Positions 7,936 to 34,773 of a stretch of DNA of 49,957 nucleotides are shown here, in pieces. The position numbers were made by a program, and so were the translations under genes. This DNA comes from Microcaldota archaeon. GTDB lineage: Archaea; Micrarchaeota; Micrarchaeia; Micrarchaeales; Micrarchaeaceae. The notes below the pieces were generated by a model. That model made no database searches, had not been told where the DNA came from, and saw only the letters and a program-made list of their open reading frames with translations. The stretch covers positions 1 to 49,957 of the forward strand of contig JAGWHO010000008.1 in the NCBI GenBank assembly GCA_028866715.1, given 5' to 3'. Within the stretch, counting starts at the first letter, position 1; each line of letters begins with the position of its first letter.

Positions 7936-10134
7936 ATGGTAAGGAAGGAGTACGTAGTAGAGGAAATCACAAAGCTTATGAGCAATGTCGACCTTATCAG
8001 GAACATCGCTATCATAGCGCACGTCCACCACGGAAAGACTACTCTTACAGACTCACTTCTGGTAAAGGCTGGAATAATATCTAAGTCTGTTTCCGGAGAC
8101 GTTCTCTACACCAACTACGAGGCGATAGAAAAAGACAGGAGAATGACGATTAAGTCGGCTAACATATCCTTGGGCTTCGAGTACAAGGAAAAGGATTATA
8201 TCATCAACCTCATTGACACGCCTGGCCACGTAGACTTCGGAGGCCACGTCACGAGATCGATGAGGGCTGTTGACGGAGTGGTCCTCGTGGTTGACCCTGT
8301 AGAAGGAATCATGCCGCAGACCGAGACAGTACTCAGGCAGGCTCTAAAGGAAAAGGCAAAACCTATCCTTTTCGTGAACAAGGTAGACAGGCTTCTTTCT
8401 GAATTGAGATTAACGCCGGAACAGACGTTCGAGCGTCTCCAGAATCTTATAGCGGACATCAACACGCTCATAGAGAACTTCGCGCCGGAGGAGTTTGCCG
8501 ACAAGTGGAAGCTCAGCGTAGAGAACGGGAGCGTATCATTTGGATCAGCTTACGACAGATGGGCAGTATCAAGATACATCATGGAGAAGAACAAGGTCAA
8601 CTTCAAGCATGTGTTCGAGTTCAGCGCACAAGGTGAAGAGGGCCTCAAGAAACTGCAGGAGATGGCCCCTATCGAGGACGTCATACTTGCACAGGTAATA
8701 GACCATCTGCCGTCGCCAAAGATTGCACAGGCTTACAGAATTCCTCAGATATGGCACGGCGATCTCAACTCAGAGGAGGCAAAGTGGATGCTTAGCACAG
8801 ATGCATCGGCAAAGACGATCATGGTTGTGTTCAACATAATCTACGACCCGCATAGCGGAGAGGTAGCAATCGCAAGGGTATTCTCAGGCGCAGCAAGAAA
8901 GGGAATTGACATTAATGTATCGGGAAGGACGACAGTCCAGAAGCTCCAGCAGGTCGGAGTATACATGGCGCAGGACAGGATACTCGTAGACAACATACCT
9001 GCAGGAAACATAGCAGCGCTGGTTGGATTAAAAGACGTATCAATCGGAGACACGCTAAGCGAGATTCCGGTAGAGCCGTTCGAGAGCATAACGCACTACT
9101 CGAAGCCTGTAGTGACAAAGGCCATAGAGGCAAAGGACTCAAGAGATACAACAAAGCTTATCGAAGCTCTCAGAGTCCTCACAAAGCAGGACCCAACGAT
9201 AAAGGTGGAGATCAACCAAGAGACAGGAGAGCACCTCGTAAGCGGAATGGGGGAGCTCCATCTAGAGACAATAGAGACAAAGCTAAAGGACGATTACAAG
9301 GTACCAATAACAACAAGCGAGCCGATAGTGGTTTACCACGAGACGCTCGCTGCGTCAGCAGGGCCCATAGAAGGAAAATCGCCAAACAAGCACTCCAAGT
9401 TCTGGATAACGGTATCTCCGTTGCCGGAGACGGTGCAGAAGGCCTTAGACGAAGAGAAGATAAGGGAAGGAACGCCGAAGGGCCAGGTTGCAATAGAGGC
9501 AATGATAGAGGCAGGTCTTGACAGACCTACAGCAAAGGGTGTAGTCCAGGTAGTAAACGGCAACATGCTTGTAGACGTTACAAAAGGGGTCCAGTACCTC
9601 AACGAGGTCATGGAGCTGCTGGTAGACGGATTCACTGAGGCAGTAAGGGACGGACCGCTCGCAAGAGAGAAGGTAGCAGGCATGATGGTCAGCATCAACG
9701 ATGCTACAATACACGAGGACCCTGTGCACAGGGGACCAGCGCAGATAATCCCGGCGATGCGAAGAGGCATATACGCCGCTATGCTCACGGCAGGAGTAAC
9801 GCTCATGGAGCCAAAGCAGCTCTTTACAATAAACATACCTCAGGAGTACATGTCAAACGTCATAAACCTTTTGCAGGGCAAGAGAGGACAAGTGCTCAAC
9901 ATAGCGCAGGACCGTGAACAGATATCGATCAACGCAAAGGTGCCGGTCTCAGAAGTCATAAAGGGCTTCTCCAACGAATTGAGAAGCATGACTCAGGGAA
10001 GGGCAATCTGGTACTACGAGTTCGCAGGTTATGAGAAACTGCCTACGGAACTGCAGAACAAGATCGTAAAGGAGATAAGGACAAGGAAGGGCCAGAAGCC
10101 AGAACCTCCGACAGCGATGGAGTTCATGGACTAA
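7936..10134 (+). CDS. fusA: translation elongation factor EF-2
   Basis: This 732-residue GTPase drives ribosomal translocation. Visible motifs are G1 AHVHHGKT (residues 28-35), switch II DTPGHVDFGGH, G4 NKVD, the domain II-V pattern, and EDPVHRGPAQIIPAMRR with the His at about 598 that archaea and eukaryotes modify to diphthamide. G1 is odd: the invariant Asp of AHVDHGKT is His31 (codon CAC instead of GAC). The rest of the protein is well conserved, so the gene looks functional. Its last 11 bases overlap the stop of the convergent vapC-like gene. Fourth gene of the L30e operon. Confidence 0.97.
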   Translation: MVRKEYVVEEITKLMSNVDLIRNIAIIAHVHHGKTTLTDSLLVKAGIISKSVSGDVLYTNYEAIEKDRRMTIKSANISLGFEYKEKDYIINLIDTPGHVDFGGHVTRSMRAVDGVVLVVDPVEGIMPQTETVLRQALKEKAKPILFVNKVDRLLSELRLTPEQTFERLQNLIADINTLIENFAPEEFADKWKLSVENGSVSFGSAYDRWAVSRYIMEKNKVNFKHVFEFSAQGEEGLKKLQEMAPIEDVILAQVIDHLPSPKIAQAYRIPQIWHGDLNSEEAKWMLSTDASAKTIMVVFNIIYDPHSGEVAIARVFSGAARKGIDINVSGRTTVQKLQQVGVYMAQDRILVDNIPAGNIAALVGLKDVSIGDTLSEIPVEPFESITHYSKPVVTKAIEAKDSRDTTKLIEALRVLTKQDPTIKVEINQETGEHLVSGMGELHLETIETKLKDDYKVPITTSEPIVVYHETLAASAGPIEGKSPNKHSKFWITVSPLPETVQKALDEEKIREGTPKGQVAIEAMIEAGLDRPTAKGVVQVVNGNMLVDVTKGVQYLNEVMELLVDGFTEAVRDGPLAREKVAGMMVSINDATIHEDPVHRGPAQIIPAMRRGIYAAMLTAGVTLMEPKQLFTINIPQEYMSNVINLLQGKRGQVLNIAQDREQISINAKVPVSEVIKGFSNELRSMTQGRAIWYYEFAGYEKLPTELQNKIVKEIRTRKGQKPEPPTAMEFMD

Positions 10135-10570
10135 TCTCATCAATAAAGTCCTGAATAGCCATCGATTTGTAATTCTTTACCTTTATCTTATATTTGTCCT
10201 CAATAAACTTCTTATTTTCAAGAATCTTTGTGTCTTCTGTGACCAATGTCTCGTTCATCGCTACGGCTGTAGCAACTATGATGCAATCCACGTAATCGTT
10301 AAGCCTCTTAAGCAGGTCGTTTGCAATCCTTGTCACCTCTGGTGCATAGAATGGCAAAACCTTAAATGATGAAATTATTGCGTCTACTGCTTCCGTGACA
10401 TGCTTCGGATCTATCCCTAATTTCGCTGCCTTTGCCTGCAGCTCAAACAAAGAAAGCTCGCTGACTGTCGCATTGAGCTTGTACAGGTGCTCTTCCGGCA
10501 TTCCAGCAATCATATCACTCTCTACGGCTATCCTGGCGAACGGCAGAATGTACGTTGTATCTAGTATCAG
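10124..10570 (-). CDS. vapC: VapC-like PIN-domain toxin, probable CTG start
   Basis: PIN ribonucleases cleave tRNA or rRNA when not bound by their antitoxin. The acidic PIN residues are all present: Asp in LILDTTYILPF at the N-terminus, Glu in SELSLFEL, Asp in DYVDCIIVATA and Asp in LVTEDTKIL. The first ATG in frame (10513) would delete the first strand and the first catalytic Asp, so it cannot be the true start. Upstream there is no ATG, GTG or TTG before a stop. The best start is CTG at 10570-10568, which overlaps the antitoxin stop as CTGA and gives the usual MILDTTYI-like N-terminus (148 residues). The 3' end overlaps the EF-2 stop by 11 bases. A decayed start is the alternative. Confidence 0.75.
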   Translation of the reverse strand: MILDTTYILPFARIAVESDMIAGMPEEHLYKLNATVSELSLFELQAKAAKLGIDPKHVTEAVDAIISSFKVLPFYAPEVTRIANDLLKRLNDYVDCIIVATAVAMNETLVTEDTKILENKKFIEDKYKIKVKNYKSMAIQDFIDEISP

Positions 10571-10806
10571 GACATCGCCGCTTTAGATAACTCTGACCTG
10601 AAGCCCTCAAACTCCTTGTTTGTCACCTTCGCGAGCTTCTTCGCATGCAAAAGCCTTGTCAGGTTCGCCCTGTTCATGAGCGCCTTCCTAAGAATGTCAT
10701 TCATTACCCTCGAGATGGCCTTGCCTGTCTTATATTCATTTAGGCTCTCCTTTACCAGCGCCTCGTAGACATCCTTGTCAAGAAGCACTGTGGTTCTCCT
10801 CTCCAT
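10567..10806 (-). CDS. vapB: VapB-like ribbon-helix-helix antitoxin
   Basis: This 79-residue protein should bind and silence the PIN toxin and repress the operon. The N-terminal half is a ribbon-helix-helix DNA-binding fold: strand RTTVLLDKDVYEAL, helix, then KAISRVMNDILRKAL. The C-terminal half (NLTRLLHAKKLAKVTNKEFE) is the likely toxin-binding tail. It lies directly upstream of the toxin, with overlapping stop/start bases. A 9-base inverted repeat lies just ahead of the ATG and overlaps the promoter, fitting autoregulation. Confidence 0.8.
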   Translation of the reverse strand: MERRTTVLLDKDVYEALVKESLNEYKTGKAISRVMNDILRKALMNRANLTRLLHAKKLAKVTNKEFEGFRSELSKAAMS

Positions 10807-10816
10807 AACATCAACA

Positions 10817-10840
10817 ATATGTTTATATGCTTAAACATAT
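10817..10840. promoter_or_regulatory. inverted-repeat operator and TATA region of the vapBC pair
   Basis: ATATGTTTA (10817-10825) and TAAACATAT (10832-10840) form a perfect 9-base inverted repeat with a 6-base spacer. It begins 10 bases upstream of the vapB ATG and overlaps an AT-rich TATA-like stretch on the minus strand near 10838-10847. The size and position suit dimer-of-dimers binding by a ribbon-helix-helix antitoxin. Confidence 0.6.
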
Positions 10841-10858
10841 AAATACCTTCCTGGCCAC

Positions 10859-12244
10859 CTAATCAGTCTCGCTTTCTTCCAGCTCTACACTCTCTACGTT
10901 CTCCTTCTTTTGCTCCTGTCTTCCTGCATCATAGTCAACCTTATTCTGCGGAAGATTCCTCTTGTAATCCTCTATGATCCTGCTGTACTGCCTGGAGTGC
11001 ATGTTGTCGAACAATCTATAGCACAGAGTGCCCAAGAGCACCTCAGTGACAATGAGCGTTATAAGCTCGAAGCCCTTGACCCTCTCGAGAAGGCTTGTCT
11101 CGACGCGCTGCAGGTCTCCGTCCCTGTAAACAGGGAAGATGAAGAGGGCCGGGGCTCCGGTGTCCCCCACAAGCGCAAACCTGTTCGTCGGGTTAGGCGA
11201 TTGGCCTATTATCTCGTTGAGAAGGTTCTCCCTGCTGTCTATAAGCAGCTTGCCGTTGATCATGTTCGCTATCAGTACCGCGTTGTATTTGATGCCTGTA
11301 TGCTGCATCGTTATGGTAGGCCTTACTATAATTCCATTCTCTTTCAGCCTGTGGTATGTGTACTGCGAGGTGCCCCTGTCAAGGCCGTGCCTCTTGTCTA
11401 TGTCCGTGAAGTCCATATTGGCATCAGCGTTCATCTCCCTAAGCACGGCGTACTCCCTGCCTGTTATCTGCCCCTGCTGTATGCGGGGCGTCTCTTTCGA
11501 TCGCTTCCATACGCTTTCCTTTAGCAATTCGTAGAACTCCCCCCGCAATGGCACGAAGCAGTAGGTAGCGAAGAACGGCGATATGGTCCATTCCATGTCG
11601 TATTCCGCTATGGTCTTGTCCAGCAGGAACCTGTAGAACAATCCGGATGCGTTCTCGCCGCTCCTGCCCACGAAGTGCAGTATCATGTCGTATCTTCCGC
11701 TCGTAAGAAGGACAAGCTGGACATTGCGCATTTTCGCGAACGCCTCTTTGAGCCTCGCAACGTCGGGCCTCTTGCCCACAAACTTGACAAGGGCAAGATA
11801 CTCGAGATAACCCAGTTTCACCAGATTCGGCTCGATTATGTACCTTATCCCATATCTTTCTTCCAGCTGCCCTATCCTGTAGTGCGTCGAATTGGGCTTC
11901 AATCCAGCAAGCCCTCCTATAAACGCAAGGCTTGCCCTCGAGTTCATGCTCAGTGCAGTCAGTATCTTCTTGTCTGTCTCGCTGAGCCTCTCAGGGCCGG
12001 CAGCCTGAACAGGCCTCTCGGCAGCAGCGCCGTATTGGGCGCCCTTCCTTATGAATGTGCCGTCGTCTGTAATCCTGCCAAGGTACTCCGCAATGCTCCT
12101 TACTTTCTTTCTATTCTTGTCCCATGCAGTTGTCCTCCTATAGACGTAGTAATGGCCGTTCAGCCTGCTTATTGAGATATTCGAGCCGAGCTCTCGTCTA
12201 ATGCTCTCGAGAGCCTTGGTCACTGCCTCAGGGATCTTCTTCAT
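10859..12244 (-). CDS. double winged-helix (Lrp/AsnC-like) regulator with transposase-like N-domain
   Basis: This is a 461-residue probable DNA-binding regulator. Residues ~20-70 (NGHYYVYRRTTAWDKNRKKV, then YLGRI and a DG turn) resemble the N-terminal module of IS1634-type transposases and some archaeal regulators. A first Lrp-type helix-turn-helix follows (LSETDKKILTALSMNSRAS, near residues 82-140), then an alpha/beta sensor-like domain. A second HTH (QITGREYAVLREMNADANMD onward, near residue 255) is followed by another sensor-like domain. The C-terminal 50 residues are charged and probably disordered. It reads away from the AT-rich region that holds its palindromic operator. The ligand is unknown. 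Confidence 0.7.
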   Translation of the reverse strand: MKKIPEAVTKALESIRRELGSNISISRLNGHYYVYRRTTAWDKNRKKVRSIAEYLGRITDDGTFIRKGAQYGAAAERPVQAAGPERLSETDKKILTALSMNSRASLAFIGGLAGLKPNSTHYRIGQLEERYGIRYIIEPNLVKLGYLEYLALVKFVGKRPDVARLKEAFAKMRNVQLVLLTSGRYDMILHFVGRSGENASGLFYRFLLDKTIAEYDMEWTISPFFATYCFVPLRGEFYELLKESVWKRSKETPRIQQGQITGREYAVLREMNADANMDFTDIDKRHGLDRGTSQYTYHRLKENGIIVRPTITMQHTGIKYNAVLIANMINGKLLIDSRENLLNEIIGQSPNPTNRFALVGDTGAPALFIFPVYRDGDLQRVETSLLERVKGFELITLIVTEVLLGTLCYRLFDNMHSRQYSRIIEDYKRNLPQNKVDYDAGRQEQKKENVESVELEESETD

Positions 12245-12263
12245 ATTAGTATTTTATACTAAT
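12245..12263. promoter_or_regulatory. palindrome next to the regulator start codon
   Basis: ATTAGTAT-TTT-ATACTAAT is a perfect 8-base inverted repeat immediately upstream of the regulator's ATG at 12244. Its half-site recurs at 12299. The position suggests an autoregulatory operator. Confidence 0.55.
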
Positions 12264-12298
12264 TGAAATATAAATATATTACTATAAAATAGGATTAC

Positions 12299-12318
12299 AT
12301 ACTAATATATATTAGAAT
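12299..12318. promoter_or_regulatory. second palindrome of the regulator region
   Basis: ATACTAAT-ATAT-ATTAGAAT repeats the half-sites of the 12245-12263 palindrome in the opposite order, with one mismatch. Inside it CTAATATATATTAG is a perfect 14-base palindrome. It lies between the regulator and the divergent gene pair at 12498, so it could control either direction. Confidence 0.5.
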
Positions 12319-12385
12319 AAAAACAAGAATAATCGTTGAAATCTCGTATCCATACTCAAATATGCGCCTCAGAAGCGAGGTCACT

Positions 12386-12396
12386 CATATATATGC
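12386..12396 (+). promoter_or_regulatory. possible TATA box for the tandem paralogue pair
   Basis: CATATATATGC lies about 105 bases upstream of the likely ATG at 12498. The long distance leaves room for a leader, or for an N-terminally longer protein starting near 12396. Confidence 0.25.
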
Positions 12397-12497
12397 GGTA
12401 TGTCGTAATAGATATCACAGGCAAGGGGGAAGAAGCTCATACTTTTCATGTTCCTTCCCCTTTTCCCCCACCCACCTTTATGATTAACCGTGATGAG

Positions 12498-13013
12498 ATG
12501 GAGAATACTACAAAGAAACCAGTTCATATCGTAGATAAAATACAGACGCAGCTTAGGGAGGACGGCTATCAAAATACCATAAAAGTATCTGATGCACTGT
12601 ACCGTATCGGCTATGACTCAGTACCTTCGATGATGGATAAGGTCGCTGAAGGAGGGACTATTGAGGAGCAGATAGGCAAATACCTCAAGGCACAAAAGCT
12701 TTCTGCAGCCGATTCCGATGATGACTTCTTATCTATAAAAAGCCTTAACGGGGAGCTGCCTAAAAATCTACCATTACAACTTACGATCCCGATAACTTTT
12801 ACTCTATCCTCTGTAACGCTTAGGGCACCAAAGGACAGTCACTATAAAATAGTGATAGATGCAAGTAAAGGTACCGTTTCTAGAGTTGCTGAGTGGGAGT
12901 TGGAAGGTAAAAAGATATGTGAGTATCTTGTCGGTAAAGACAAAAATGGTGACTTCAATGGCGAATGTGAAGAAAGCCCATTCTTCGTAAAGCTGAGAAA
13001 AGGAACGGCTTAA
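12498..13013 (+). CDS. unknown protein, first of a tandem paralogous pair
   Basis: The likely product has 171 residues (MENTTKKPVHIVDKIQTQLR...), although the frame is open from 12336 and ATG codons at 12393 and 12480 are possible. The part before 12498 is Pro/Phe-rich and unlike coding sequence, so I chose 12498, where GTGATGAG precedes. I do not recognise the family. The N-terminal half is helical and charged. The C-terminal half has beta-type strands (LPLQLTIPITFTL, YKIVIDASKGTVSRV). The next gene has the same plan and is probably a duplicate. Base composition is clearly richer in A and T than the neighbours, which hints at transfer. Confidence 0.6.
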   Translation: MENTTKKPVHIVDKIQTQLREDGYQNTIKVSDALYRIGYDSVPSMMDKVAEGGTIEEQIGKYLKAQKLSAADSDDDFLSIKSLNGELPKNLPLQLTIPITFTLSSVTLRAPKDSHYKIVIDASKGTVSRVAEWELEGKKICEYLVGKDKNGDFNGECEESPFFVKLRKGTA

Positions 13014-13050
13014 GGCAACTGAAGTAAATTGCGATAAATGGTTGAATATC

Positions 13051-13539
13051 ATGGTACAAGCACAAAAGAACATAGATAATCATGTGAAAGCAGAGATGCG
13101 TCTATCAGAGCTGCTTAAGCAACTTGATGCTGATAACGTCCCATATACCATAGATGCGAAATTTTATTTAGATCATGAAAAAATAGAGGAAGAGGTAATT
13201 AACGGACTAAGTGCCTCAGGATTTAAGGCAGACACGTCAAACGGCTCGATAGTAAAAGGCTTCCTTTTCGAAATAACTCCTACAACCAAAGATACTGTAC
13301 TTAGTTCACTAAGACTCACAGTACCGATTGACATATACGCAGATCAAATCTACCTAAAATTAGAGAATGAGAAGCCTGTAGAGATATTAGTTAATAGAAC
13401 GAACGGCACTCTAGACCTAATCTCTCTAGATATCGTACAAAAGTCGGTTAATGGCCAGTTATCGGAACGTTTAAGCTATCTTCAGAATGCTGTAAAAAAG
13501 GCAAATTTGCTGAGAAGAGAAGGCATGGTTACAGAATAA
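13051..13539 (+). CDS. unknown protein, second of a tandem paralogous pair
   Basis: The product has 162 residues (MVQAQKNIDNHVKAEMR...). It follows the first paralogue by 37 bases. The shared pattern is an N-terminal helical part, a TI-x(n)-IEEEV helix, then an Ile/Leu-rich strand pair: LSSLRLTVPIDIY here against LPLQLTIPITFTL, and PVEILVNRTNGTLDLI against YKIVIDASKGTVSRV. No signal peptide, metal site or catalytic motif is visible. The pair could be an accessory or mobile-element cargo. I give no function. The in-frame TTG at 13042 is a less likely start. Confidence 0.65.
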   Translation: MVQAQKNIDNHVKAEMRLSELLKQLDADNVPYTIDAKFYLDHEKIEEEVINGLSASGFKADTSNGSIVKGFLFEITPTTKDTVLSSLRLTVPIDIYADQIYLKLENEKPVEILVNRTNGTLDLISLDIVQKSVNGQLSERLSYLQNAVKKANLLRREGMVTE

Positions 13540-13824
13540 GTAAATAAAGTGATCCAATGAACCCCTACCACAACGATGCGACAAAGCAGCACAGTGACGG
13601 AGAGCTTCTTTGAATATTTTGAGGCAATCTCATGATTGTAACTACAGTTCTAAATCTAACGGCGCTTGGCGTATCCATAAGGAAAACATACGACGCATTG
13701 CTTAGAAAAAGCGATTAAAAGCCACTAATCCAAAAGGTTTAAATAAGCTAATAACCAATACTTTCTTTGAAGGTATTCTTTCTTCTAAAGTAATACTGAA
13801 TGAGGGAAACCGACGGTGTTATAC
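13540..13824 (+). other. intergenic region with two very short overlapping ORFs and the L7Ae promoter
   Basis: Two tiny frames occur: 13576-13635 (19 residues, MRQSSTVTESFFEYFEAIS) and 13632-13718 (28 residues, starting MIVTTVLNLTALGVSIRKTY). The second ATG overlaps the first TGA as ATGA. I cannot tell peptides from remnants. GGTTTAAATAAG near 13736-13747 is a TATA-like box for the L7Ae operon. Confidence 0.35.
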
Positions 13825-14313
13825 ATGGCAAAATCTTACGTAAAGTTCGAGGTATCTAACGATATCGTCGCAAAGACATACGAGGCTTTGCAGCAGGCAA
13901 GGCAGAATGGTACCATAAGAAAGGGTGCGAACGAGGTAACGAAGAGCGTAGAGCGCGGTCTAGCCTCTTTCGTTGTTATCGCAGGTGACGTTGACCCTGA
14001 AGAGGTCGTTGTCCATATCCCGAGCCTTTGCGAGCAGAAGAAGATAACATACTCATATGTGCCGAGCAAGCAGGAGCTTGGCAAGTCCATAGGCATGAAT
14101 GTGCCGTGCACTGCAATCGCGGTCGAGAACCCGGGCAGCGCTGCAAACGCGATAAAGGACATAGTGTCAAAGGTAACGGGACTTGCGCCAAAGCCAGCTC
14201 AGGCACCATCTCCAGAAAAGGCTGCAGAGCAGCCGAAGAAGGAGGCAAAGCCCAAGGCAGAGAAGAAGGCGGCCCCTAAGAAGGAGGCAGCGCCTGAAAA
14301 GGCAGCAGAATAA
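13825..14313 (+). CDS. rpl7ae: ribosomal protein L7Ae with Lys/Ala/Pro-rich tail
   Basis: L7Ae binds kink-turns in rRNA, and in archaea also in box C/D and H/ACA RNPs and RNase P. The core (residues 1-122) carries the family signature KGANEVTKSVERGLASFVVI, then AGDVDPEEVVVHIP and YSYVPSKQELGKSIGM. The last ~40 residues are a low-complexity Lys/Ala/Pro/Glu tail, absent from typical archaeal L7Ae. The ATG at 13825 with GGTG six bases upstream is preferred over the GTG at 13816. S28e and L24e follow. Confidence 0.95.
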   Translation: MAKSYVKFEVSNDIVAKTYEALQQARQNGTIRKGANEVTKSVERGLASFVVIAGDVDPEEVVVHIPSLCEQKKITYSYVPSKQELGKSIGMNVPCTAIAVENPGSAANAIKDIVSKVTGLAPKPAQAPSPEKAAEQPKKEAKPKAEKKAAPKKEAAPEKAAE

Positions 14314-14930: not shown

Positions 14931-15194
14931 ATGAATACTCAGCAACTCATACACTACCCAAGGCTCGATACTGTAATGATGGTCGAGAAGGCCATAAAGG
15001 ACGCAAAGGAATACCCGTCAAAAAGACAGCTCTGGCTGTCGCTCAAGAAAAAGGTAATGTATCAGACATTTAATGTCATAATTGCATATCTAGAAGAATC
15101 CGGCAAGATAGTACAGAAGGACGGGAAGATAATCTGGATATGGGATCCGGACCTGGTCAAGCGATACATGGGTAGCGGCTTGGTGCTGAAATAA
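14931..15194 (+). CDS. winged-helix antitoxin-like protein of a RelE-type pair
   Basis: This 87-residue protein (MNTQQLIHYPRLDTVMMVEK...) matches my memory of a small archaeal winged-helix family that precedes RelE-type toxin genes, with the conserved YPRLDTV start, the QLWLSLKKKVMYQTFNVII helix pair and KIIWIWDPDLV wing. Its TAA (15192-15194) overlaps the toxin reading frame. The tandem AT-rich repeats ahead of it fit autorepression. Family assignment rests on pattern memory, not on a search. Confidence 0.65.
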   Translation: MNTQQLIHYPRLDTVMMVEKAIKDAKEYPSKRQLWLSLKKKVMYQTFNVIIAYLEESGKIVQKDGKIIWIWDPDLVKRYMGSGLVLK

Positions 15195-15523
15195 CAAGCC
15201 ACAGAATAGTAAGCGTAGTCTTTGCAGACGAGAAGCTGCAAAGGGCATATCTTGAAGTTAAGGACGTTAATCCTAATCTATACAAGGCCCTTGACAGGGC
15301 GACTGATAATATAAAGGCAGATCCAAGATGCGGAATTGCCATATCAAAGCGCTTGATACCCAAGATTTACATACAGAAATACGGCATAAACAATTTGTGG
15401 AAATACGACCTACCTAACGGATGGAGGCTTGTCTACTCTTTGAAAGGCAATGAAGTTGAGATCATAGCGATACTGTTGGAGTGGTTCTCACACAAAGGGT
15501 ATGAAAGGCGTTTCAAGTACTAA
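15191..15523 (+). CDS. relE: RelE/ParE-like toxin with no canonical start codon
   Basis: The frame encodes a RelE-like mRNA interferase: VFADEKLQRAYLEVKDVNPN, then IPKIYIQKYGINNLWKYDLP, GWRLVYSLKGNEVEIIAILL and a C-terminal EWFSHKGYERRFKY. The fold pattern and basic C-terminus are typical. The frame opens after a TAG at 15173 and has no ATG, GTG or TTG before the conserved start of the protein; the conserved body contains no Met codon. Candidates are ATA at 15191, which overlaps the antitoxin stop as ATAA, or ATA at 15206. The 3' end overlaps the convergent gene by 4 bases. It may be weakly translated on purpose, or be dead. Confidence 0.65.
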   Translation: MTSHRIVSVVFADEKLQRAYLEVKDVNPNLYKALDRATDNIKADPRCGIAISKRLIPKIYIQKYGINNLWKYDLPNGWRLVYSLKGNEVEIIAILLEWFSHKGYERRFKY

Positions 15524-34686: not shown

Positions 34687-34773
34687 CGGGCCCGACGGGA
34701 TTTGAACCCGCGACCTTCAGATTTCTTCCTTTGTTAGAAGTCTGCCGCTCTATCCAAGCTGAGCTACGGGCCC
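34687..34773 (-). tRNA. tRNA-Arg(TCT) with a 12-base anticodon-loop intron
   Basis: On the minus strand a full cloverleaf is seen: acceptor GGGCCCG with CGGGCCC, D arm GCTC/GAGC, anticodon loop CTTCTAA, and a GCGGG-TTCAAAT-CCCGT T arm. Discriminator is G. The anticodon is TCT and A20 is present, as expected for Arg. Between the loop and the 3' anticodon stem an extra 12 bases (about 34724-34735) must be removed, at the usual 37/38 site. Pair 27-43 is a mismatch (G/A). CCA is not encoded. Its 5' end abuts the tatD stop. Confidence 0.9.

Follow-up and report, generated by a model that had tools for sequence, protein, structure and literature searches.

Probable acquisition of a pair of orphan paralogues beside an AsnC/Lrp-type regulator in a Micrarchaeaceae archaeon

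Two small adjacent genes, here called P1 and P2, lie between a regulator gene and the L7Ae operon of a Micrarchaeaceae archaeon, and they raise the question of what they are, how they came to be there and what controls them. A first-pass annotation of the DNA had taken them for tandem paralogues of an unrecognised family in an AT-rich stretch and had suggested that they could be an acquired two-component module. We followed up this suggestion in the whole stretch of 49,957 nucleotides, called the window below, and in the genomes of relatives. The features that we discuss are collected in Table 1.

Table 1. Positions of the features in and around the EF-2/L7Ae insert, in window coordinates
Feature	Position	Strand	Remarks
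PIN-domain (VapC-like) gene	10124..10513	-	PF01850, E 2e-10; the 3' ends of this gene and of EF-2 overlap
3.7-kb stretch between EF-2 and L7Ae	10135..13830		length and content vary across the archaeal family
Small gene upstream of the PIN gene	10567..10806	-	possible antitoxin, judged by its position alone; matches no family above cut-off
AsnC/Lrp-type regulator	10859..12244	-	N-terminal extension; second winged-helix match sub-threshold; divergent from P1-P2
Perfect palindrome ATTAGTAT-ttt-ATACTAAT	12245..12263		abuts the regulator start codon; candidate operator
Second palindrome copy, imperfect	12288..12306		2 mismatches; 43 bp from the first
TATA-like stretch	12387..12394	+	candidate P1-P2 promoter; read by eye
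Leader stem	12420..12466	+	GGCAAGGGGGAAG (12420-12432) pairs with CTTCCCCTTTTCC (12454-12466)
P1, orphan protein	12480..13013	+	177 aa from ATG 12480, 171 aa from ATG 12498
P2, orphan protein, weak paralogue of P1	13051..13539	+	162 aa

P1 and P2 are real genes. As the annotation had it, two open reading frames are present in tandem on the plus strand, 37 bp apart, and both carry a coding signal. Their codon log-likelihood exceeded that of shuffled sequences (z 5.3 for P1 and 4.6 for P2), and each frame outscored the other five frames on codon statistics, which were trained on 35 long open reading frames of the window that were picked mechanically and may include some spurious ones. The P1 frame has a further in-frame ATG at 12393, besides those at 12480 and 12498. 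The calculated pI is 5.8 for P1 (171-aa form) and 5.2 for P2. Because the highest 19-residue hydropathy is 1.07 in P1 and 0.75 in P2, no membrane segment is expected in either protein. Elsewhere in the window, an open frame at 15182-15523 gave a weak match to a ParE toxin (PF05016, E 0.006, below cut-off); its start codon is not clear, and no neighbouring antitoxin was identified.

We found that the two genes differ in third-position composition from their surroundings. GC3 is 0.395 in P1 and 0.337 in P2, whereas the 35 long reading frames of the window average 0.641 and do not fall below 0.485. In six regions of the same genome, 3/78 reading frames had a GC3 of 0.395 or less; two of these look spurious and one looks real. 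The PIN-domain gene, at 0.485, equals the lowest value of the 35 reference frames, and the regulator, at 0.682, has a native composition. The description of the stretch as AT-rich is thus correct for P1 and P2 but not for the regulator. The real-looking low-GC3 frame elsewhere in the genome has a value of 0.277 and lies on another contig (C3, L118:70-546), close to another copy of the regulator.

P1 and P2 resemble each other in sequence. BLASTP aligned them co-linearly across 115 aa at 22% identity (E 4e-4, from a single comparison and not a search). Their Smith-Waterman score is 70, where shuffled sequences average 31 (z 7.4); none of 2000 composition shuffles and none of 2000 local-block shuffles reached it. 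Of 516 further proteins, taken from the window and from relatives, none scored as high as 70 with P1 or P2 (best 62 and 59). That set leaves out loci that had been retrieved because they matched P1 or P2; with these kept in, 3/582 proteins score at least 70 for each. The segments that had first drawn attention follow one another in the same order and align: IEE (residues 55-57 of P1 and 45-47 of P2), LTIPI (95-99 of P1) with LTVPI (89-93 of P2), and GT (125-126 and 119-120). In this single pair the similarity goes past chance across most of the length, and the shuffles and the local proteins uphold the view of P1 and P2 as tandem paralogues. Their common descent, judged from one pair of sequences, is likely but not proven.

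Alternatively, P1 and P2 might be unrelated, and their likeness a matter of chance in two sequences that were chosen for looking alike. The identity is low, there is one pair, and the motifs are short. Secondary structures predicted for the two proteins differ, in models of which neither is usable (mean pLDDT 38.3 for P2 modelled alone and 35.4 for P1 with P2 as alignment). In addition, matches selected from 301 genomes reach an E value of 1e-5 in one small locus, and such values alone therefore do not prove descent. Against chance stand the shuffles of both kinds, the local proteins, and the fact that the co-linear alignment came from one comparison without a search. We consider a chance likeness unlikely.

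We found no family for either protein. Neither P1 nor P2 had a Pfam or NCBIfam match above cut-off, a convincing match in PHROGs, PADLOC or PDB sequences, or a relative in the viral contigs, species genomes or plasmids searched. A phage collection gave nothing for P1 and only two unannotated records for P2, at E 0.9. Among related genomes, P2 was found in 1/99, its own (E up to 0.001), and P1, in 60 genomes at E up to 1, matched its own genome and two others at 0.05 and 0.6. Across 301 genomes of the phylum, P1 matched its own genome and seven others at 0.01 to 0.09 (E up to 0.1), a profile of P1 and P2 its own and six others at 0.01 to 0.07, and P2 its own and ten others, the best of which (4e-4) lies inside what is, by its sequence, an adenylate-kinase gene. 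Scans of collections with a single protein need shared peptides, and distant relatives may therefore escape them. DNA remnants of the pair in the 301 genomes amounted to two short matches outside its own genome, of 37 bases (in the leader) and 25 bases. The pair turned up in no second genome searched, and neither sequence offered a hint of function. The claim of an unrecognised family is borne out by these searches, and the P1-P2 family is probably lineage-restricted, that is, orphan.

The weak matches were set aside. After reading six of the loci we treated the genome matches (E 4e-4 to 0.1, in seven, six and ten genomes) as chance: judged by their sequences, three fell in genes for an adenylate kinase, an isoleucyl-tRNA-synthetase-like protein and a helix-turn-helix-plus-CBS-like protein, two fell in unnamed reading frames, and one ran antisense to an RNA polymerase gene. 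The library matches of P2 (KCTD H1 domain, E 0.017; PHROG 4476, E 0.016; adenylate kinase, E 0.043) were rejected as well. P2 as an adenylate kinase would align only at residues 15-75 (genome match, in one genome among 301) or 11-78 (library match), and the P-loop is absent by eye.

We found that the pair lies in a variable spot. Besides P1 and P2, the stretch between EF-2 (named by reading its sequence) and L7Ae (PF01248) holds the PIN gene, the small gene upstream of it and the AsnC/Lrp-type regulator. L7Ae was found in 58/60 genomes of the family. Its surroundings were taken from 54 other genomes, and EF-2 lay within the stretch in 42 of them and not in 12. The gap between the two genes, estimated and tallied by hand, is about 81-211 bp in 28/42 relatives and 466-5341 bp in the remaining 14/42. 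None of the genes of the insert was found by tblastn (E 1e-5) in the stretches upstream of L7Ae in the 54 relatives, which reach 68 to 7305 bases, some being short or ended by contig ends. Nine proteins from eight of the larger gaps were compared to Pfam: six matched unrelated families above cut-off (AIR synthase, threonyl-tRNA editing, EamA, peptidase A4, ASCH and SSF), one matched below it and two had no match. Four gaps of 519-714 bp contained no clear gene.

These results support the suggestion that the pair was acquired: the third-position composition is unusual for the window, and the window has extra DNA between two genes that are close together in most of the relatives. We conclude that P1 and P2 are probably acquired orphan paralogues. 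Signs of a mobile element (integrase, terminal repeats, attachment site) were not found. No integrase match was present among the insert genes tested with Pfam and NCBIfam, and the edges of the insert (9900-10200 and 13500-13835) share no word of nine or more bases, direct or inverted.

A different origin is that P1 and P2 stem from an archaeal virus or another mobile element, of which they would be pieces or cargo (minor virion or host-takeover proteins, for example) left stranded in the variable spot. We regard this origin as somewhat unlikely. It would fit the AT-rich third positions, the lack of relatives and the variable spot, and the available parts of two surveys link orphan genes of archaea to integrative elements (PMC2718499, PMC4158269). 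Speaking against it are the edges without repeats and the viral and phage searches, in which the best PHROGs match was the one at E 0.016; such searches work best for close relatives, and the absence of a relative in viral contigs is weak evidence.

Another alternative is that P1 and P2 work as a defence pair, toxin-antitoxin-like or of another type, and that together with the VapC-like gene they make up a small defence island. The operon-like order of two genes, the variable spot and the PIN-domain neighbour speak for it. The PADLOC, Pfam and NCBIfam searches argue against it, and the toxin and antitoxin of one system are seldom paralogues of each other. We consider a defence pair quite improbable.

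The regulator belongs to a family that recurs through the lineage. It matches the AsnC-type helix-turn-helix domain PF13404 at 35.4 bits (cut-off 27) and falls short of the RAM domain PF01037 (17.4 bits, cut-off 25); its N-terminal extension has no Pfam match. The family is multi-copy, with a match in 52/60 genomes of the archaeal family, often several per genome, and with seven matches, part of them partial, in the genome of the window.

We confirmed that the regulator has palindromic sites, one exact and one with two mismatches. The pattern is expected to match 0.14 times across the whole window, and two sites were found in 0/100 shuffles. Only the second site is a test, because the pattern was derived from the first, and the local AT-richness lessens the surprise of finding the second somewhat.

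A small divergent neighbour, a RAM-like protein of about 100 aa, recurs beside the regulator. The one member tested matched PF01037 at E 7e-4, below cut-off. By a profile search of open reading frames, a RAM-like partner was present at 17/29 other regulator copies that were fetched (two of the loci are near-identical and one has 241 bases of flank), and none was detected at 12/29. Within the genome of the window, the copy at L118 has such a partner, and the copy in the window and two copies at L119 have none. P1 and P2 fill the regulator slot that is often, not always, held by a RAM-like protein. They do not appear to be its kin: a profile of the RAM-like family matched no reading frame of the window. 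Several regulator loci also have a protein of about 60 aa with a motif resembling 'RPVKMVKDG..W.I.YADE'.

We found that the divergent leaders of the regulator family tend to contain a G-rich stretch followed by a C-rich stretch with which it can pair, and that the sequences of both are specific to the locus. In the window, folding of the leader gave a z of -2.7, with 1/200 shuffles as good. We compared cognate and non-cognate helices by swapping arms between 56 non-redundant loci. The mean score was 24.14 for cognate helices and 21.53 for non-cognate ones, a difference reached in 0/20,000 permutations. Forty leader stretches were fetched, three of them too short, and copies with a truncated 5' end were omitted; of 66 leaders overall, 65 were scored singly and 64 were long enough for swapping, and removal of eight near-duplicates left 56, namely the window and 55 others from L042-L070, L118, L119 and L137-L176.

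The result did not depend on two odd loci. With L061, which by reading resembles a tRNA gene, and L157, which has a very long stem, left out, 0/5000 permutations were as good (54 loci), and the same was found when the window was left out too (53 loci, 0/5000). When the region was moved by 140 bases, the figure rose to 491/5000, and in six dinucleotide-shuffled sets it ranged from 41 to 666 of 1000. The swap test and these controls indicate that pairing is kept as the sequence varies between loci. The signal is spread thinly: 7/56 loci ranked first in their row and five in their column (about one expected), and the median rank was 14.5. The stem of the window ranked 11/56, which is unremarkable on its own. 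Scored singly, 23/65 leaders outscored every one of their 12 shuffles (about five expected), so many single loci are unconvincing alone.

Rfam matched no leader stem in the loci searched. In 20 loci, at E up to 1, it found only an rRNA in one flank and a sub-threshold microRNA match (L172:200-261, E 0.91), and on the leader stretch of the window it gave sub-threshold matches only. As to the tRNA-like look of L061, ARAGORN found no tRNA in 38 loci, but it also missed a tRNA that Rfam places in the window at 34687-34773 (minus strand), perhaps because of an intron. Very long stems were seen in L157 (335-456) and, similarly, in L161, both from one relative; they comprise 43 and 51 columns with mismatches. 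In L135, a locus of a relative of the same class, 37 bases are 86% identical to window positions 12445-12481, across the C-rich arm of the leader.

By eye, the 5' arms of the leaders look like ribosome-binding sites before ATG codons. We also considered a proline-rich leader peptide, which was not supported. At least four prolines in 20 residues could be read in 29/56 loci; shuffled sets gave 4.9 such loci on average and never more than 9. The excess showed no preference for frame, with 3.4 in frame against 3.5 and 4.0 in the other two (p 0.79; 25/27 strong-stem loci usable), and the C-richness of the leaders is a nucleotide-level property. The window itself has an eleven-codon reading frame (12448-12483, MFLPLFPHPPL) whose stop codon overlaps the ATG at 12480 as ATGA; translational coupling of this frame and P1 is possible.

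One reading of the leaders is that they contain a cis element of the regulator family that has gone unrecognised: a G-rich 5' arm like a ribosome-binding site pairs with a C-rich 3' arm, the pairing is kept while the sequence varies, and the cargo behind the element is exchangeable, P1 and P2 being cargo that was swapped in. We put this forward tentatively, at somewhat less than an even chance. If it is true, a regulatory cassette found throughout the lineage would have received P1 and P2 as a new orphan module.

Taken together, the explanation that we consider best is that P1 and P2 are an orphan pair from an old tandem duplication, cargo of the EF-2/L7Ae spot, controlled by the regulator and coding for accessory proteins that act jointly; we hold this explanation to be about equally likely to be right or wrong. 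The lineage-restricted pair would have been brought in, or kept, as cargo of the spot. P1 and P2 would most likely be co-transcribed from the divergent promoter of the regulator, with the stem in their leader. The position of the regulator suggests that it may control them through the palindromes, and the stem may mask the ribosome-binding site. Both genes probably encode small acidic proteins of the cytosol. These might be partners, perhaps in a heteromer, with an accessory role in stress, defence or the biology of a mobile element.

A literature search by title found nothing on the P1-P2 pair or on the leader element, which is weak evidence of absence. By itself, the pair would count as just another orphan module, housed where a small archaeal genome varies. 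The leader element is a by-product of the analysis and more interesting than the pair. Should the stem prove to be a control element, it would offer a handle on gene regulation in these archaea, for which, to our knowledge, genetic tools are scarce.

Leader stems that mask a ribosome-binding site are a known regulatory device. The leaders described here are like them in that a G-rich 5' arm near an ATG, which by eye resembles a ribosome-binding site, pairs with a C-rich 3' arm. They are unlike them in that the arms differ from locus to locus and that Rfam searches of 20 loci and of the window stretch gave no match. The regulator resembles AsnC/Lrp regulators with a divergent partner in its PF13404 match, the palindromes at its start and its divergent neighbour. 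It departs from them in its N-terminal extension and sub-threshold second winged-helix region, and in a slot that is held by orphans and not by a RAM-like protein.

Pairs of orphan genes are a known kind of content at variable spots in archaeal genomes, as far as the available parts of two surveys go (PMC4158269, PMC2718499). Unlike the orphan genes of integrative elements in those parts, P1 and P2 were seen without a gene of a mobile element. They are most like the 'dark matter' islands of archaea described there (PMC4158269, PMC2718499), in which small, narrowly spread genes lie between conserved genes; here, the adjoining gene is VapC-like. What sets P1 and P2 apart from the islands in these accounts is that they are paralogues in tandem and that they occupy the divergent slot of a regulator found across the lineage.
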